A stretch of DNA of 50,628 bases from Atopobiaceae bacterium (lineage in GTDB: Bacteria; Actinomycetota; Coriobacteriia; Coriobacteriales; Atopobiaceae). The stretch lies in NCBI GenBank assembly GCA_017941705.1, contig JAGAVX010000052.1, forward strand, positions 1 through 50,628, in the 5' to 3' direction. The notes under the pieces are model-generated. The model worked only from the letters and a program-made list of their open reading frames with translations. It was not told the origin of the DNA and ran no database searches. Positions 25,042-39,137 of the stretch are shown here, one piece after another; positions within the stretch are counted from its first letter, which is position 1; each line of letters starts with the position of its first letter. The translations under genes were made by a program, and so were the position numbers.

Positions 25042-25180
25042 CGTGCACTGGTGCCTGTCCCCGATGCACGGCCGCGTGCAACGGTGCCTGTCCCCGATGC
25101 ACGGCCGCGTGCGCTGGTGCCTGTCCCCGACGCACGGCCGCGTGCGCTGGTGCCTGTCCCCGATGCACCCCAATGCACGG
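25042..25180 (-). repeat. Family A array, four tandem 33-bp units
   Basis: GTGCCTGTCCCC begins at 25051, 25084, 25117 and 25150, exactly 33 bp apart; read on the minus strand each is GGGGACAGGCAC. The linker GGCCGC is identical between the first three. This is the longest array in the window and fills the space between the aroB-like gene and the M24 peptidase. Confidence 0.95.
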
Positions 25181-28623: not shown

Positions 28624-29544
28624 ATGGCAGAGAACGAAATCAAGCTTTCTGTTGCTGATCGTCGTGCAGTGTGCTGGCGTCACCAGTTCCTGCAGGGCTC
28701 TTGGAACTACGAGCGTATGCAGAACGGCGGTTGGTGCTACGCCATGATCCCCGCCATCAAGGCGCTGTACTCTTCCAAGGAGGAGCAGTCCGCTGCTCTT
28801 AAGCGTCACCTTGAGTTCTACAACACCCATCCGTACGTCTCCGCCCCCATCATCGGCGTCACGCTGGCACTCGAGGAGGAGCGCGCCAACGGTGCTCAGG
28901 TCGAGGACCAGGCCATCCAGGGCGTTAAGGTCGGTATGATGGGCCCGCTGGCCGGCGTCGGCGACCCCGTCTTCTGGTTCACGGTACGCCCGATCCTGGG
29001 CGCCCTCGGTGCCTCCATGGCCATGGGCGGTTCCATCATCGGCCCCATCCTGTTCTTCGTCCTGTGGAACCTCATCCGCCTCGCCTTCCTGTGGTACACG
29101 CAGGAGTTCGGCTATAGCGTGGGCACCACCATCGCCAAGGACCTCTCCGGCGGCATGCTCGGCAAGATCACCGAGGGCGCTTCGATTCTGGGTATGTTCA
29201 TTATCGGCGCGCTGGTGCAGCGCTGGGTGTCCATCTCCTTCACCCCGGTCGTCTCCACGGTCACGCAGGCTGAGGGTGCCTACATCGACTGGTCGACCCT
29301 GCCCGCTGGCGCCGAGGGCATCAAGTCTGCGCTCGAGCAGTACAGCGCGCTTGGTCCCGCAGGCCTTAACGTCGAAAAGGTCACCACGCTTCAGGGCAAC
29401 CTCGACCAGCTCATCCCTGGCCTGGCCGCCGTCTGCCTGACCCTGCTCTGCTGCCAGCTGCTCAAGAAGAACGTCTCCCCGATCACCATCATTCTGGCGC
29501 TCTTCGCAGTCGGCATCATTGGCCGCGTCATCGGCTTCATGTAA
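28624..29544 (+). CDS. manZ: PTS mannose-family IID component
   Basis: A 306-residue protein with a soluble N-terminal half and C-terminal membrane segments. QFLQGSWNYERMQNGGWCYA and GVKVGMMGPLAGVGDPVFW are diagnostic for IID. With IIC it makes the sugar channel; in other bacteria this pair is also a receptor for some bacteriocins and phages, which is family knowledge only. AAGGAG lies before ATG 28624. A long hairpin separates it from the DUF956 gene. Confidence 0.95.
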   Translation: MAENEIKLSVADRRAVCWRHQFLQGSWNYERMQNGGWCYAMIPAIKALYSSKEEQSAALKRHLEFYNTHPYVSAPIIGVTLALEEERANGAQVEDQAIQGVKVGMMGPLAGVGDPVFWFTVRPILGALGASMAMGGSIIGPILFFVLWNLIRLAFLWYTQEFGYSVGTTIAKDLSGGMLGKITEGASILGMFIIGALVQRWVSISFTPVVSTVTQAEGAYIDWSTLPAGAEGIKSALEQYSALGPAGLNVEKVTTLQGNLDQLIPGLAAVCLTLLCCQLLKKNVSPITIILALFAVGIIGRVIGFM

Positions 29545-32615: not shown

Positions 32616-33542
32616 ATGGACTCTAAAACGTTGCGGTACATCGTTAAGAGAATATTTTTCTCTCTTGTCACGATCTGGGCGGTCATCACGATCACCTTCT
32701 TCGTGATGCATGCCGTTCCGGGTGGCCCCTTTACCCGCGAGAAGGCAATCTCGGCAGAGGCGCAGGCTGCGCTCAACGCCAAGTATGGCTTGGACAAGCC
32801 GCTGTTCGAGCAGTACACCACCTATCTCACCGACGCGATCCACGGCAACTTTGGCCCGTCCATCAAGCAGCGTGGCCGCATGGTGACTGACGTCATCCTC
32901 GATGGCATGAAGACCTCTGCCAAGATCGGCGTCATCGCGCTGATCATCGCCACGGTTGCGGGCGTGTTGTTGGGTGCGCTGGCAGCCCTGCGAAGAAACT
33001 CGCTGGCAGACCGAATAATCATGGTAATGACGACCGCGTTCGTGTCGATGCCATCGTTCATCATGGGATCGTTGCTGCTCATCCTATTCTGCGTGAAGCT
33101 CAACGTGCTGCCGGCCAACGGCGCCGCAAAGGGCGGCCTGATCCTGCCGGTCATCACGCTGGCGCTGTATCCGATGTCCTACATCACGCGCCTTACGCGC
33201 TCGTCGATGCTTGACGTGCTCGGCCAGGACTACATCCGCACCGCAAAGGCCAAGGGTGTCTCCGAGCGCAACGTCATCCTCAAGCACGCGCTCAAGAACT
33301 CGCTCATCCCGGTCATCACCTACTTTGGCCCCGAGCTTGCCTACATCGTCACAGGCTCGCTCGTCGTCGAGCAGATCTTTGCCGTGCCGGGTATCGGTCG
33401 CTACTTCGTGAACTCCATCACAGGCCGCGACTACACCCTCATCATGGGTACCACGATCGTGCTGGCCACCCTCATCGTCGTCATGAACCTCGTGTCCGAC
33501 ATCCTGTACAAGGTTGTCGACCCGCGCATCAATCTTGAGTAG
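32616..33542 (+). CDS. oppB: Oligopeptide ABC transporter permease OppB
   Basis: A 308-residue inner-membrane permease with six predicted helices. The N-terminal YIVKRIFFSLVTIWAVITI and the ATPase-contact loop RTAKAKGVSERNVILKHALK (EAA-type) are typical of OppB/DppB. VEQIFAVPGIGRYFVNSI is a family signature. It forms the peptide channel with OppC. AAGGTGGG precedes ATG 32616. It is first of oppBCDF, 36 nt past the secG terminator. Confidence 0.95.
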   Translation: MDSKTLRYIVKRIFFSLVTIWAVITITFFVMHAVPGGPFTREKAISAEAQAALNAKYGLDKPLFEQYTTYLTDAIHGNFGPSIKQRGRMVTDVILDGMKTSAKIGVIALIIATVAGVLLGALAALRRNSLADRIIMVMTTAFVSMPSFIMGSLLLILFCVKLNVLPANGAAKGGLILPVITLALYPMSYITRLTRSSMLDVLGQDYIRTAKAKGVSERNVILKHALKNSLIPVITYFGPELAYIVTGSLVVEQIFAVPGIGRYFVNSITGRDYTLIMGTTIVLATLIVVMNLVSDILYKVVDPRINLE

Positions 33543-33553
33543 GAGGTGTGATC

Positions 33554-34612
33554 ATGGCTAACAACCCACTCCGCATGCAGGTCGACCTCAACGACTTCCT
33601 CCCCGCAAGCGAGGAAGAGAAGGAATACATGGTGCAGATGCGTCCGTCGTCGACGTTCTTCCGCGACGGCTGCAAGCGCCTCTACAAGAACAAGGTCGCC
33701 TTCGTCTCGATGATCGTGATCATTCTCATCACGGTCGCCTCAATCGTTCTTCCCATGGTCTGGCCGTACTCCTACGCCAAGCAGCTGGGCAACCAGCCTG
33801 GACGCCCGGTCGACCCGTCGTTCAACAACCTCGCCCCCATGGAGTACTCGCTCTCCGAGCAGGAGCGCATGGCTAACGGCGAGAGCGTCTTCCCGCATAT
33901 CTTTGGCACCGACTCCTCGGGCCGCGACTACTTCATCCGCGTGGTCTATGGTACCCGCATCTCCCTGGCCGTCGGCTTCTTCGCCTCGATCATCGTCCTG
34001 GTCATCGGCATGACGCTGGGCTCGGTCGCCGGCTTTGCGGGCGGTCGCGTCGACATGATCATCATGCGCATAGTCGACATCATCTACTCGCTGCCGGACA
34101 TGCTGATGGTGATTCTTTTGGCCAGCGTCCTGCGCGAGACGCTCGGGCCTGCCATCGAGGGCACGTTCCTGCAGACCATCGGCTCCAACATCATCGCGCT
34201 CTTCGTCATCTTCGCACTGCTCTACTGGTGCTCGATGGCACGTCTCATCCGCGGCCAGATCCTGTCGCTGCGCGAGCAGGAGTACGTGCTTGCCGCCGAG
34301 ACGGCCGGCGCCGGTGCGGGCTGGATCATCAGGCGCCACCTGATCCCCAACTGCATCTCGGTCATCATCATCTCGACCGCACTGCAGATCCCCAGCGCCA
34401 TCTTCACCGAGAGCTTCCTGTCGTTCCTCGGCTTGGGCGTCAACGCCCCCGTGCCTTCGCTCGGCTCGCTGGCGTCCGAGGCGCTCAACGGCGTCACCAG
34501 CTACAGCTATCGCCTGGTCATCCCCGCCCTCGTCATTTCGCTCATCGTGCTTGGCCTCAACCTCTTTGGCGACGGCCTGCGCGACGCGTTCGATCCCAAG
34601 CTCAACCAGTAG
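33554..34612 (+). CDS. oppC: Oligopeptide ABC transporter permease OppC
   Basis: A 352-residue permease with a ~45-residue cytoplasmic N-terminus, then a first helix (VSMIVIILITVASIVLPMV), a periplasmic stretch with GTDSSGRDYFIRVVYGTRIS, and the EAA loop (YVLAAETAGAGAGWIIRRHL). It pairs with OppB. AGGAGG sits 7 nt before ATG 33554; a GTG at 33548 is too close to that site. It follows oppB by 11 nt. Confidence 0.95.
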   Translation: MANNPLRMQVDLNDFLPASEEEKEYMVQMRPSSTFFRDGCKRLYKNKVAFVSMIVIILITVASIVLPMVWPYSYAKQLGNQPGRPVDPSFNNLAPMEYSLSEQERMANGESVFPHIFGTDSSGRDYFIRVVYGTRISLAVGFFASIIVLVIGMTLGSVAGFAGGRVDMIIMRIVDIIYSLPDMLMVILLASVLRETLGPAIEGTFLQTIGSNIIALFVIFALLYWCSMARLIRGQILSLREQEYVLAAETAGAGAGWIIRRHLIPNCISVIIISTALQIPSAIFTESFLSFLGLGVNAPVPSLGSLASEALNGVTSYSYRLVIPALVISLIVLGLNLFGDGLRDAFDPKLNQ

Positions 34613-34625
34613 AAAGGAGGCACCC

Positions 34626-35936
34626 ATGGCACTTTTGGAGGTAAAAGACCTGCATACGTCGTTCTTCACCGATGCAGGCGAGGTAAAGGCCGTCAATGGC
34701 GTCTCCTTCAACCTCGACAGGGGAGAGACGCTTGGTATCGTGGGCGAGTCCGGTTCCGGCAAGTCGGTCACGGTCTACTCGATCATGCAGATTCTGGCGC
34801 CTGCCGGCAGGATCGTCTCTGGCTCGGTCAAGCTCGACGGCCAGGAGCTCGTCGGCGCCGGCGAGAAGGTCATGCGTGACGTCCGTGGCAACAAGATCAG
34901 CATCATCTTCCAGGACCCGATGACCTCGCTCAACCCGACCTACACCATCGGTGACCAGCTGATGGAGGCCATCCTGCTGCACACCGACCGCACCAAGCAG
35001 CAGGCCTGGGACCGCGCGGTCGAGATGCTTCGCCTCGTCAACGTCAACGAGCCCGAGAAGCGCATGAAGCAGTACCCGCACGAGTTCTCGGGCGGCATGC
35101 GCCAGCGCGTCATGATCGCCATGGCGCTCGCCTGCGAGCCTGACATCCTGGTGGCGGACGAGCCGACCACGGCACTCGACGTGACCATCCAGGCCCAGAT
35201 CCTCGAGCTCATGCAGAAGCTCCAGAAGGAGCTCGGCATGGCCATCATCATGATCACCCACGACCTTGGCGTGGTCGCGCAGATGTGTGACGAGATTGTC
35301 GTCATGTACGCCGGCTCGTACTGCGAGCGCGGCACGGCCGACGAGATCTTCTACAACCCCAAGCACGAGTACACCAAGGGCCTGCTGCGCTCTATCCCCA
35401 CGATGAGCACCATGGGCCAGAAGCTCCAGCCCATCACCGGCACCCCCATCGACCTGCTCAACCTGCCCAAGGGTTGCCCGTTTGCCCCGCGCTGCGAGGC
35501 GGCGATGAAGGTCTGCATCCGTCAGGCGCCCGAGTCGATGGTCATCAATGCGGATCACAAGGCATCCTGCTGGATGAACGTCAAGGCCATGGCGGAGAAG
35601 CTCGGCGCGGACGCCACGTCCAACGCACTCGAGCAGGGTCTGAGCCTCGAAGAGGCGCTTGCCCAAGGCGCCGAGGCCGAGAAACAGGGACTCGAGGCCA
35701 CCGTTACCTATGTCGAGGAGAGCTCCTACATCCGCGACGAGGAGCTGCGTAGCGCTCGTACGCAGGCAGCCGAGGACGTTGCGCGCAGTGCCGGCGATCC
35801 CAACCACCCCTTTGGCGACCACGGTGCCGACCTCATCGGAGACGCCGGTCTCATGGATGCCAGAGGCGCGGGCTCGCGCATACTGAAGCAGAGCGAACGT
35901 GCCGCATCGCATGGCGAGAAAGGCGGTGAGGAGTAA
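34626..35936 (+). CDS. oppD: Oligopeptide ABC transporter ATPase OppD with long C-terminal extension
   Basis: A 436-residue ABC ATPase. Walker A is GESGSGKS (40-47), the signature FSGGMRQR is near 155, Walker B ILVADEPT near 175. The Opp C-terminal motif with four-cysteine type pattern (CPFAPRCEAAMKVC) lies at about 288-301 and probably binds an iron-sulfur cluster. Beyond ~325 there is an extra ~110-residue Glu/Ala-rich tail not usual for OppD (about 330-360 residues). AAAGGAGG precedes ATG 34626. Its stop overlaps the oppF start. Confidence 0.93.
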   Translation: MALLEVKDLHTSFFTDAGEVKAVNGVSFNLDRGETLGIVGESGSGKSVTVYSIMQILAPAGRIVSGSVKLDGQELVGAGEKVMRDVRGNKISIIFQDPMTSLNPTYTIGDQLMEAILLHTDRTKQQAWDRAVEMLRLVNVNEPEKRMKQYPHEFSGGMRQRVMIAMALACEPDILVADEPTTALDVTIQAQILELMQKLQKELGMAIIMITHDLGVVAQMCDEIVVMYAGSYCERGTADEIFYNPKHEYTKGLLRSIPTMSTMGQKLQPITGTPIDLLNLPKGCPFAPRCEAAMKVCIRQAPESMVINADHKASCWMNVKAMAEKLGADATSNALEQGLSLEEALAQGAEAEKQGLEATVTYVEESSYIRDEELRSARTQAAEDVARSAGDPNHPFGDHGADLIGDAGLMDARGAGSRILKQSERAASHGEKGGEE

Positions 35937-36931
35937 TGGCCGACACCACGACCAACGAGACGCCGCTCGTCGACGTCCGTCACCTCAAGGAGTACTTCCC
36001 CGTAAACACCGGCTTCTTCAAGTCAACGCCGCTCAAGGCCGTTGATGACGTGAGCTTCCAGATCAAGCGCGGCGAGACGCTCGGTCTGGTCGGCGAGTCC
36101 GGCTGCGGCAAGACGACCGTCGGCCGCACCATCCTGCACCTCTACGAGCCCACCGACGGCGAGGTCGTCTACGACGGCCGTCCCATCAAGACCAAGGAAG
36201 ACATCAAGTGGTTCCGCACCAAGTCGACGATGGTCTTCCAGGACCCCTACTCCTCGCTCAACCCGCGCATGACGGTCTCCGACATCATCGGCGAGCCGCT
36301 TGACGTGCACCACATGTGCTCAAACGCCAAGGAGCGCGAGGAGAGGATCCTCAAGCTCATGGACCGCGTGGGCCTCAACTCCGAGCACGCCAGCCGCTAT
36401 GCGCACGAGTTCTCGGGTGGCCAGCGTCAGCGCATCGGCATCGCGCGCTCGCTTGCCGTCGACCCCGAGTTCATCGTCTGCGACGAGCCGGTCTCGGCGC
36501 TCGACGTGTCCATCCAGGCGCAGGTCATCAACATGTTCGACGAGCTGCAGGACCAGATGGGCCTGACCTACCTGTTCATCGCCCATGACCTGCTGGTCGT
36601 GCGCCACATCTCGGACCGCATCGCCGTCATGTACCTGGGCAAGATGGTCGAGCTGGCTGACGCCGGCGAGATCTACGACCATCCGCTGCATCCGTACACC
36701 AAGTCGCTCATCTCGGCAGTGCCGATTCCCGATCCTAAGATCGCGCGCGCCAACAAGCGCATCCCGCTGCAGGGCGACATCCCAAGCCCCCTCAATGCGC
36801 CATCTGGCTGCCCGTTCCGCACGCGCTGCCCGTACGCGCAGGAGAAGTGCGGCGAGACGATGCCGGCGTTCGACGAGGTCTCGCCCGGTCACTTCGTGGC
36901 GTGCCACCGCGTCGCCGAGATCAACGGCTAG
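35936..36931 (+). CDS. oppF: Oligopeptide ABC transporter ATPase OppF
   Basis: A 331-residue ABC ATPase. Walker A is GESGCGKT (53-60), Q-loop [13 protein letters not shown], signature [15 protein letters not shown], Walker [13 protein letters not shown]. The C-terminus has the cysteine motif [14 protein letters not shown], as in OppD. It makes the ATP-hydrolysing heterodimer with OppD. The start is in a TAATG overlap with oppD, indicating coupling. A very strong terminator follows. Confidence 0.95.
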
Positions 36932-36966: not shown

Positions 36967-36997
36967 GTGCCTGCCAATCGCGGCAGGCACTTTTTTT
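36967..36997 (+). terminator. Rho-independent terminator of oppBCDF
   Basis: GTGCCTGCC and GGCAGGCAC pair perfectly around a 6-nt loop, followed by seven T. It separates the permease/ATPase genes from oppA. Confidence 0.96.
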
Positions 36998-37214: not shown

Positions 37215-39011
37215 ATGTCCAACGTTACGCGTAGGAACTTCCTGAGGGGCATCGGCGGCATGGTCGTCATCGGTGGTCTGAGCGCCTGTGGTGGCGGCTC
37301 TGGATCCTCCGACTCCGGCGCTGGCGCAGCTGCTTCCGGCATGGCTCCTGAGGAGGCCGAGGCCGCAAAGATGGAGATCCGCAAGGCCATCCGTCTGCTC
37401 TTCGACCGTCAGTACATCGTTGACGAGATCGCCCAGGCCAACCAGATTCCTGCGAGCACCTTCGTCTGCCAGGGCGTCGGCGAGCCCGACGGCTCCGACT
37501 TCATGGAGAACGCCGGCCGCGGCGAGGGCAAGGGCTACTATGACGTCGCTCAGGACGCCCTCGAGTCCAACTATGCCGAGGCCCTCGAGATCCTCAAGAA
37601 GTACTACGACTATGACGAGACCAACGAGGTCTTCACCAACTTCCCGACGATGACCTACCTCTACAACACCGACGAGGGCCACAAGGCCATCGGCGAGTAC
37701 CTGCAGAGCACCCTGGCCGCCATCGGCATCACCATGAACATGGAGAACCAGGAGTGGGCAACGTTCCTGAACACCCGTAAGGCCGGCGACTACTCCATCG
37801 CCCGTAACGGCTGGATCATGGACTACACCGACCCCATCTCGATGCTCGACATGTGGACCTCCGGCTCCGGCAACAACGACGTCCAGTTTGGCAAGGGCGA
37901 CCACGAGTCCCTGGCCATCTACGACCTCGACCTCACCAAGTGGGGCTACGAGACCAAGGTCGAGAAGGGCACCTGGGCAGAGACCTTCGACGTGCTGATC
38001 GACACGATCAACAAGGAGTCCGACCAGGAGAAGCGCTTTGAGATGATGCACCTCGCCGAGGACATCCTCATGGACACCGGCTGCCTGTGCCCGCTCTACT
38101 ACTACACGATGGTCTACCTGCGCAACAAGGATGTCCAGGGCCACTTCAGCACCCCGCTGGGCTTCAACATCTTCAAGCACGCCACCTACGGCGACGGCTC
38201 GATCAACGTCTGCATCGCCTCCGAGCCCGACACGATCGACCCCGCTCTCAACTCTGCCGTTGACGGCGCCACCATGCTGACCCACCTCTTCTCCGGCATC
38301 GCCAAGTGGGAGAAGCAGGAGGACGGCACCTTCGCCATCGAGCCCGACCTGGTCGAGGAGATGGTCGAGGGCGTCCAGAACGACGACGGCACCGTGACCT
38401 ACACCTACACCCTGCGCGACGGCCTCACCTGGTCCGACGGCAAGCCCCTCACCGCTGGCGACTTCGAGTTCGCTTGGAAGCGTGCTGCCTCCGACGAGCT
38501 GGGCGCCGACTACGGCGAGATGTACTCCGTGGTCAAGGGCTATGAGGACGGCGACCTTGCCGTCAAGGCCATCGACGACAAGACCCTCGAGGTGACCACC
38601 ACCAACCTCATCGCCTACTGGAACGAGCTCATGGCCTTCCCCGTGTTCTTCCCGACGCGCGAGGATGTCGTCTCCAACGAGTCCTGGGCAACCGACCCCA
38701 AGACCTACGTCTGCAGTGGCGCCTACAGCCTCGACGGCTGGAAGCACAACTCCCTCATCACCCTCAAGAAGCGTGCTGACTACTGGGATGCTGACAACAT
38801 CAGCATGGACACCATCAACTTCTACCTGTCCGACGACCAGAACACCACGCTCACCAACTTCGAGAAGGGCGACTGGCAGTTCATCGAGGGCATCCCGACC
38901 AACGAGATGGCTCGCGTCAAGTCCGAGTACACCGACGAGTTCCACGTAGATCCCTACGCTGGCACTTACTACGTGTGCTGGAACGTCAACGAGAACATCC
39001 TGCCCGCGTAA
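37215..39011 (+). CDS. oppA: Oligopeptide-binding lipoprotein OppA, circularly permuted
   Basis: A 598-residue SBP_bac_5 peptide-binding protein. The export signal carries a twin-arginine-like TRRNFLRG and a lipobox LSAC (Cys25). Next, from about residue 40, comes SGMAPEEAEAAK and RKAIRLLFDRQYIVDEIA, continuing to GFNIFKHA (~323): this is normally the second half of the family. Then TYGDGSINVCIASEPDTIDP (324-343) opens what is normally the first half, including DGLTWSDGKPLTAGDFEFAW, and it ends at YYVCWNVNENILPA. In usual relatives ILPA runs on into the A-S-G-x-x-P-E-E-A segment, so the two ends fit each other. No piece seems missing. AGGGGAGAG precedes ATG 37215. The product should feed OppBCDF. 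Confidence 0.9.
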   Translation: MSNVTRRNFLRGIGGMVVIGGLSACGGGSGSSDSGAGAAASGMAPEEAEAAKMEIRKAIRLLFDRQYIVDEIAQANQIPASTFVCQGVGEPDGSDFMENAGRGEGKGYYDVAQDALESNYAEALEILKKYYDYDETNEVFTNFPTMTYLYNTDEGHKAIGEYLQSTLAAIGITMNMENQEWATFLNTRKAGDYSIARNGWIMDYTDPISMLDMWTSGSGNNDVQFGKGDHESLAIYDLDLTKWGYETKVEKGTWAETFDVLIDTINKESDQEKRFEMMHLAEDILMDTGCLCPLYYYTMVYLRNKDVQGHFSTPLGFNIFKHATYGDGSINVCIASEPDTIDPALNSAVDGATMLTHLFSGIAKWEKQEDGTFAIEPDLVEEMVEGVQNDDGTVTYTYTLRDGLTWSDGKPLTAGDFEFAWKRAASDELGADYGEMYSVVKGYEDGDLAVKAIDDKTLEVTTTNLIAYWNELMAFPVFFPTREDVVSNESWATDPKTYVCSGAYSLDGWKHNSLITLKKRADYWDADNISMDTINFYLSDDQNTTLTNFEKGDWQFIEGIPTNEMARVKSEYTDEFHVDPYAGTYYVCWNVNENILPA

Positions 39012-39076: not shown

Positions 39077-39137
39077 CGCCCCCACCCGCGCTGTGGTCTT
39101 GGGGCGTGTCCCTTGGACCACAGCGCGGGTGGGGGCG
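39077..39137. repeat. Family B perfect 22-bp inverted repeat
   Basis: Arms 39077-39098 and 39116-39137 are perfect 22-nt complements. The 17-nt loop contains GGGGCGTGTCCC, the inverse of the family B core. It lies just after the oppA terminator and 100 bp before the YihY gene. Confidence 0.95.

Follow-up and report, generated by a model that had tools for sequence, protein, structure and literature searches.

Does the gene at 37215-39011 of the window (the whole stretch of DNA analyzed, 50,628 nucleotides) encode a peptide-binding protein whose two halves have exchanged places and, if so, is the arrangement natural and is the product likely to work? The open reading frame specifies 598 residues, a Tat-type lipoprotein with a twin-arginine signal (TRRNFLRG...LSAC) related to SBP_bac_5 (PF00496), and an earlier note, made from sequence alone, had proposed that its C-terminal half precedes its N-terminal half. 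The parts of the gene and of its operon located below lie on the forward strand.

Chain order, fold, and operon of the window protein

When the protein was aligned (phmmer, PDB) with Bacillus subtilis DppE (8ay0), residues 323-593 corresponded to 17-285, residues 54-228 to 292-451, and residues 254-321 to 448-516, and alignments to the OppA structures 8are, 2z23, and 1b05 gave the identical block swap. PF00496 scores 212 bits on the protein (gathering cut-off, 32.4). The match is split into two stretches, and the better one pairs residues 376-594 with profile positions 3-211 of 368; the canonical relative L051 gives one match, covering profile positions 2-367. The proposed swap of halves thus held. 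Alignment with PF00496 and with Coriobacteriia OppA, suggested in the note as a check, confirmed the swapped blocks, and the result that would have refuted the proposal, one collinear full-length alignment to ordinary OppA, was looked for and not found. The chain order of canonical cluster C proteins (domain I, II, I, III, I) is not met, the blocks being swapped with respect to the solved relatives examined, and the protein has both marks of a natural circular permutant, namely two collinear blocks swapped over the full length with a short linker at the old termini, and an order fixed in independent genomes (see below). It is a permuted relative of SBP_bac_5 and cluster C, not an ordinary member. 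The structure search brought up no permuted solved relative, which is no proof of absence.

We call this order CP1. The signal peptide (37215-37289, residues 1-25, lipobox LSAC with Cys-25) is of the same kind as in canonical Coriobacteriia relatives (MSNLTRRDLLRAFG...LAAC) and is followed by a flexible linker of about residues 26-44 (37290-37346). Next (37347-38177, about residues 45-321, from PDB alignments, 8ay0) comes the stretch with which ordinary OppA ends, made up of domain III and the final strand(s) of domain I, and the joint HATYGDGS (38178-38201, about residues 322-329) fuses the old C and N termini; the linker had previously been given as TYGDGS, which needs only this small correction. 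The remainder, residues 330-598 (38202-39008), is the block with which ordinary OppA begins, comprising domains I and II through and past the hinge strand, as placed by PDB alignments and by a VIA-align Z of 29.2 to 3zs6 for model residues 324-585. The stop codon (39009-39011) stands right behind ...NVNENILPA, the CP1 cut point, which places the new termini just past the hinge strand, in domain III's first loop, and not at the interlobe hinge itself as first supposed. Downstream of the gene, at 39077-39137, lies a 22-base perfect inverted repeat with a 17-base spacer.

An AlphaFold model from a 58-row alignment, in which canonical relatives were split into halves with a row for each, reached a pLDDT of 88.8 and a pTM of 0.86, with residues 1-38 disordered (pLDDT below 50) and the joint confident (block mean about 95 over residues 321-330). 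A model from CP1 rows alone reached a pLDDT of only 60.9 and was not used. Order-dependent structure searches with the former match residues 324-586 only, to OppA proteins, with Z up to 29.2 and rmsd of 1.4-1.9 Å, which is the expected outcome because the chain is permuted. That the chain adopts the three-domain shape usual for OppA is an inference, the support from the whole model being indirect in the absence of a permuted superposition. Asp-203 (codon 37821-37823), invariant in the CP1 set, aligns with Asp-419 of Salmonella OppA (1b05), the residue that binds the N-terminal amine of the peptide (PMC5736914).

Directly upstream are oppB (32619-33542, start approximate) and oppC (33554-34612) for the permeases and oppD (34626-35936) and oppF (35936-36931) for the ATPases, all homologous to the genes of both canonical and permuted operons, so that the gene is genetically linked to a complete oppBCDF set (32619-36931). 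A terminator-like hairpin with a T-run occupies the gap between oppF and the permuted oppA (36967-36990), although it rests on a consensus match alone and such hits are no more frequent than in shuffled sequence. The last place in oppB-C-D-F-A is usual for canonical and permuted genes alike where the flanks are readable. When the OppBCDF sequences were concatenated, the resulting tree united the Coriobacteriia operons of both kinds, canonical and CP1, in one clade with support of 100. It follows that the permutation or replacement affected the binding protein in an operon that was otherwise passed on vertically. Three CP1 genes (L042, L046, and L048) are without oppBCDF in the fetched flanks, so that the partner does not always lie next to the gene. 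At L042, an upstream PTS IID-like gene resembles window 28624-29544, so that part of the gene order of the window is retained there, and at L041:8940-14667 and L047:8726-14471 a second operon, with a canonical binding protein (about 30% identical) and BCDF, lies directly behind the CP1 gene.

One might suppose that the rearranged gene is decaying or nonfunctional, given that rearrangements generally tend to inactivate genes and that dN/dS is not very low between the more distant pairs. Among CP1 orthologs, however, dN/dS is 0.09-0.66, below 1 throughout, albeit distorted by a strong codon bias (GC3 about 0.9). Also against decay, the frame is open and of normal length in dozens of genomes, with neither signal nor lipobox damaged, the binding residues are invariant, the gene is the sole close ortholog in its own genome, and it has been kept across deep divergence, all of which make decay very improbable. 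We consider it very likely, then, that 37215-39011 encodes a functional, naturally permuted peptide-binding lipoprotein serving the OppBCDF transporter encoded upstream. Its fold and its modes of action (peptide binding through Asp-203, the usual closing, and delivery to OppBCDF) rest on inference from alignment, model, dN/dS, and operon, without binding or transport data. The suggestion in the note that opening and closing or the geometry of the anchor might be altered likewise remains inference only.

The same order in separately assembled genomes

In a search of 60 relatives, five further genomes of the same genus gave the permuted order in one unbroken match spanning residues 1-598 (72-85% identity), and the ordinary order was found in nine others, six of them of the same genus, at roughly 50-65% identity. 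Overall, CP1 occurs in 15 genomes, nine of Coriobacteriia (the window included) and six of Bacillota; this count includes one partial gene cut by a contig end (L050) and a genome with two copies (G061). In that Bacillota genome the two CP1 genes, L048 and L159, are 63% identical, and just one of them adjoins oppBCDF. The named genome collection contributed the Coriobacteriia MAGs, the Bacillota MAGs, and Coriobacteriales bacterium OH1046 (L046), and although most genomes involved are MAGs, the record of OH1046, which also carries CP1, is not labeled as one. The Coriobacteriia genomes examined have CP1 or the canonical ortholog, none of them both, and the CP1 gene takes the place of canonical oppA instead of being additional to it. 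Signal, lipobox, and open frame are intact in every permuted gene read.

These data bear on the possibility of an assembly or binning artifact, in which a conventional gene was mis-joined in the window contig. In its favor, the window comes from a draft assembly of 171 contigs. Against it, the identical joint and cut recur, at 59-85% identity, in numerous genomes from two phyla that were each assembled separately, OH1046 among them; divergence of this kind would not build up on a mis-join, and the three junctions of the window gene carry no long repeats, merely short chance-like ones. A mis-join is thus all but ruled out. Assembly error and artificial rearrangement, both of which the note had left open, are excluded because the order is kept in so many separately assembled and diverged genomes.

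Four circular orders of one gene and their origins

What the earlier note could not have seen is that the same gene has been permuted in two further ways. All fetched orthologs were sorted by how four segments (N, C1, C2, and C3) follow one another, which gave the canonical order N-C1-C2-C3, CP1 (the window) as C1-C2-C3-N, CP2 as C2-C3-N-C1, and CP3 as C3-N-C1-C2. CP2 is represented by 18 complete genes in 18 genomes (L049, L085-L090, L092-L095, L220, L224, L230, L232, L234, L236, and L237) and two partial ones, and CP3 by 18 complete genes in 18 genomes (L143-L148, L150-L158, L210, L212, and L216). The CP2 cut falls between ...LKKYY and FPTLTYLYN, about 90 residues beyond that of CP1, and the CP3 cut immediately past SGNNDCQFGR. 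In each permuted form a signal peptide stands ahead of the new N terminus, and a linker of similar length joins the old termini, for example TTVDGKGDSLPV in CP1 L116, TTVDGKGDSLSV in CP2 L049, and KMSNGSDTLRL in CP3 L143. One orthologous gene therefore exists in four circular orders with three different cuts. In CP3 proteins such as P0005 (L162:6504-8291), PF00496 aligns collinearly in one piece over its full length (2-367 of 368), and the permutation is invisible to domain annotation because the PF00496 model ends at the CP3 cut.

On a 121-row tree of re-linearized proteins, one change is needed for CP1, one for CP3, and three for CP2. A more careful 46-row tree, from which joint and cut columns were left out, joins CP3 to the canonical L213 and L214 (100/100) and puts CP1 and CP2 into a clade (100/98) with further canonical proteins around them and a canonical-only branch inside; L213 has an in-frame stop, which leaves L214 as the cleaner canonical neighbor of CP3. 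A single clade of all permuted forms is rejected on this tree (lnL 285.6 lower, p-AU 1e-5), and with it one permuted ancestor for all three. The joint has thus arisen independently at least twice, with three different cuts, the exact number remaining unresolved. A single clade of CP1 and CP2 is not rejected (p-AU 0.098; 0.75 and 0.126 in earlier tests), so a common origin of these two is possible, neither shown nor refuted. The earlier 66-row tests, which were without the canonical neighbors of CP3, gave weaker answers, and some quick searches missed better constrained trees.

As to the route, permutation by duplication, in which a tandem copy is fused and then truncated at both ends (PMC2096629), fits best because the signal stays in place and the joint retains both native ends, adding only a few residues. 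By this inferred route, tandem duplication, in-frame fusion, and truncation at both ends would yield the chain order of signal, domain III with the last part of domain I, short joint, and domains I and II. No fused N-C-N-C intermediate was present among the 18 open reading frames above 850 residues in the fetched loci, nor were leftover half-genes found beside canonical genes in those loci. Apparent continuations past the stop of canonical genes proved spurious. In a Ruminococcus MAG (L054:6893-10903), two canonical oppA genes stand in tandem behind oppBCDF in the same reading frame, a duplication of the type that could precede permutation.

The gene could instead have come from fission and re-fusion, the C-half of one oppA homolog being joined to the N-half of another. 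Tandem copies such as those at L054 are compatible with this, half-gene trees are poorly resolved and not in full agreement, and the binding protein and transporter trees place the Coriobacteriia CP1 proteins differently. Against it, the C- and N-halves of the window protein are similarly close to the same relatives (64 and 65% for L045, 63 and 60% for L048, 66 and 63% for the canonical L011), as expected for a single parent gene. We regard re-fusion as unlikely, without being able to exclude it. A third reading is phase variation, in which cells of one population would reversibly exchange the halves by a programmed rearrangement. It draws on the alternation of canonical and permuted forms at the same operon position in one genus, but the three junctions lack repeats resembling recombination sites, the order is constant inside clades, and the cuts of CP1, CP2, and CP3 are not alike; it has very little to recommend it. 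Permutation of one gene by duplication remains the preferred account.

Relocation of the lipid anchor and comparison with known permutants

Aligned with Salmonella OppA (1b05), the three forms are cut at about 280-286 (CP1), 355-359 (CP2), and 442-444 (CP3). The extent of domain III in cluster C proteins is 286-503 by the numbering of Borrelia OppA4 (PMC5736914), or about 271-487 in Salmonella numbering by our own conversion, which puts all three cuts inside domain III; in the predicted structure they fall in loops. Given that the ordinary N terminus is in domain I, every permutation transfers the lipid anchor from domain I to domain III, a feature that the note had also not foreseen, and the lobe tethered to the membrane in all three forms would be that of domain III. 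Chance alone would put three cuts in domain III with a probability of roughly 0.07, and the pattern is merely suggestive. A bolder reading, that some gut and rumen bacteria benefit from the shift and that it has been reached repeatedly by permuting oppA at three domain III loops, cannot be dismissed, but we lean slightly against it, the advantage itself being inferred.

The window protein shares with the cluster C proteins DppE (8AY0), OppA (8ARE), and Salmonella OppA (1B05) the sequence of both halves, the amine-binding Asp, the lipoprotein anchor, and the linkage to oppBCDF, and differs from them in that its chain is circularly permuted and its anchor enters domain III, not domain I. Among natural permutants, TpMglB-2 (Tp0684), for which a Cluster Bc or Type Ic has been proposed, is also membrane-tethered, a property to which its authors suggest the permutation may be linked, and has relatives in Gram-positive gut bacteria (PMC4990184). 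It has, however, the sugar-binding cluster B fold, with an unrelated cut and one permutation reported, and the window protein does not meet that identity, its Pfam and PDB sequence matches being to cluster C peptide-binding proteins. Glycine betaine- and molybdate-binding proteins are likewise related by circular permutation (PMC2395249), but the relation is remote and structural, with less than 24% identity and no orthologs in one operon. The DNA methyltransferases, the textbook case of permutation by duplication (PMC2096629), show circular orders in one family and a gene-level route, but in another protein and with no relocation of a lipid anchor. In the open-licence literature, to which our search was confined, we found no report of natural permutation in cluster C or OppA, or of several cuts in one orthologous gene.

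Natural circular permutations are mostly single, ancient, and recognized from structures alone. Here, orthologs about 60% identical occur in one operon in four orders, so that the route, cost, and benefit of permutation become testable on natural variants, and for importers the question arises of whether the choice of lobe that anchors the binding protein to the membrane makes a difference. Such cases are concealed by standard annotation, as with CP3. Elsewhere in the window, at 25043-25170, an Xaa-Pro peptidase-like open reading frame starts with repeats of the peptide CLSPMHGRVRW, which probably reflect a tandem DNA repeat ahead of the true start.
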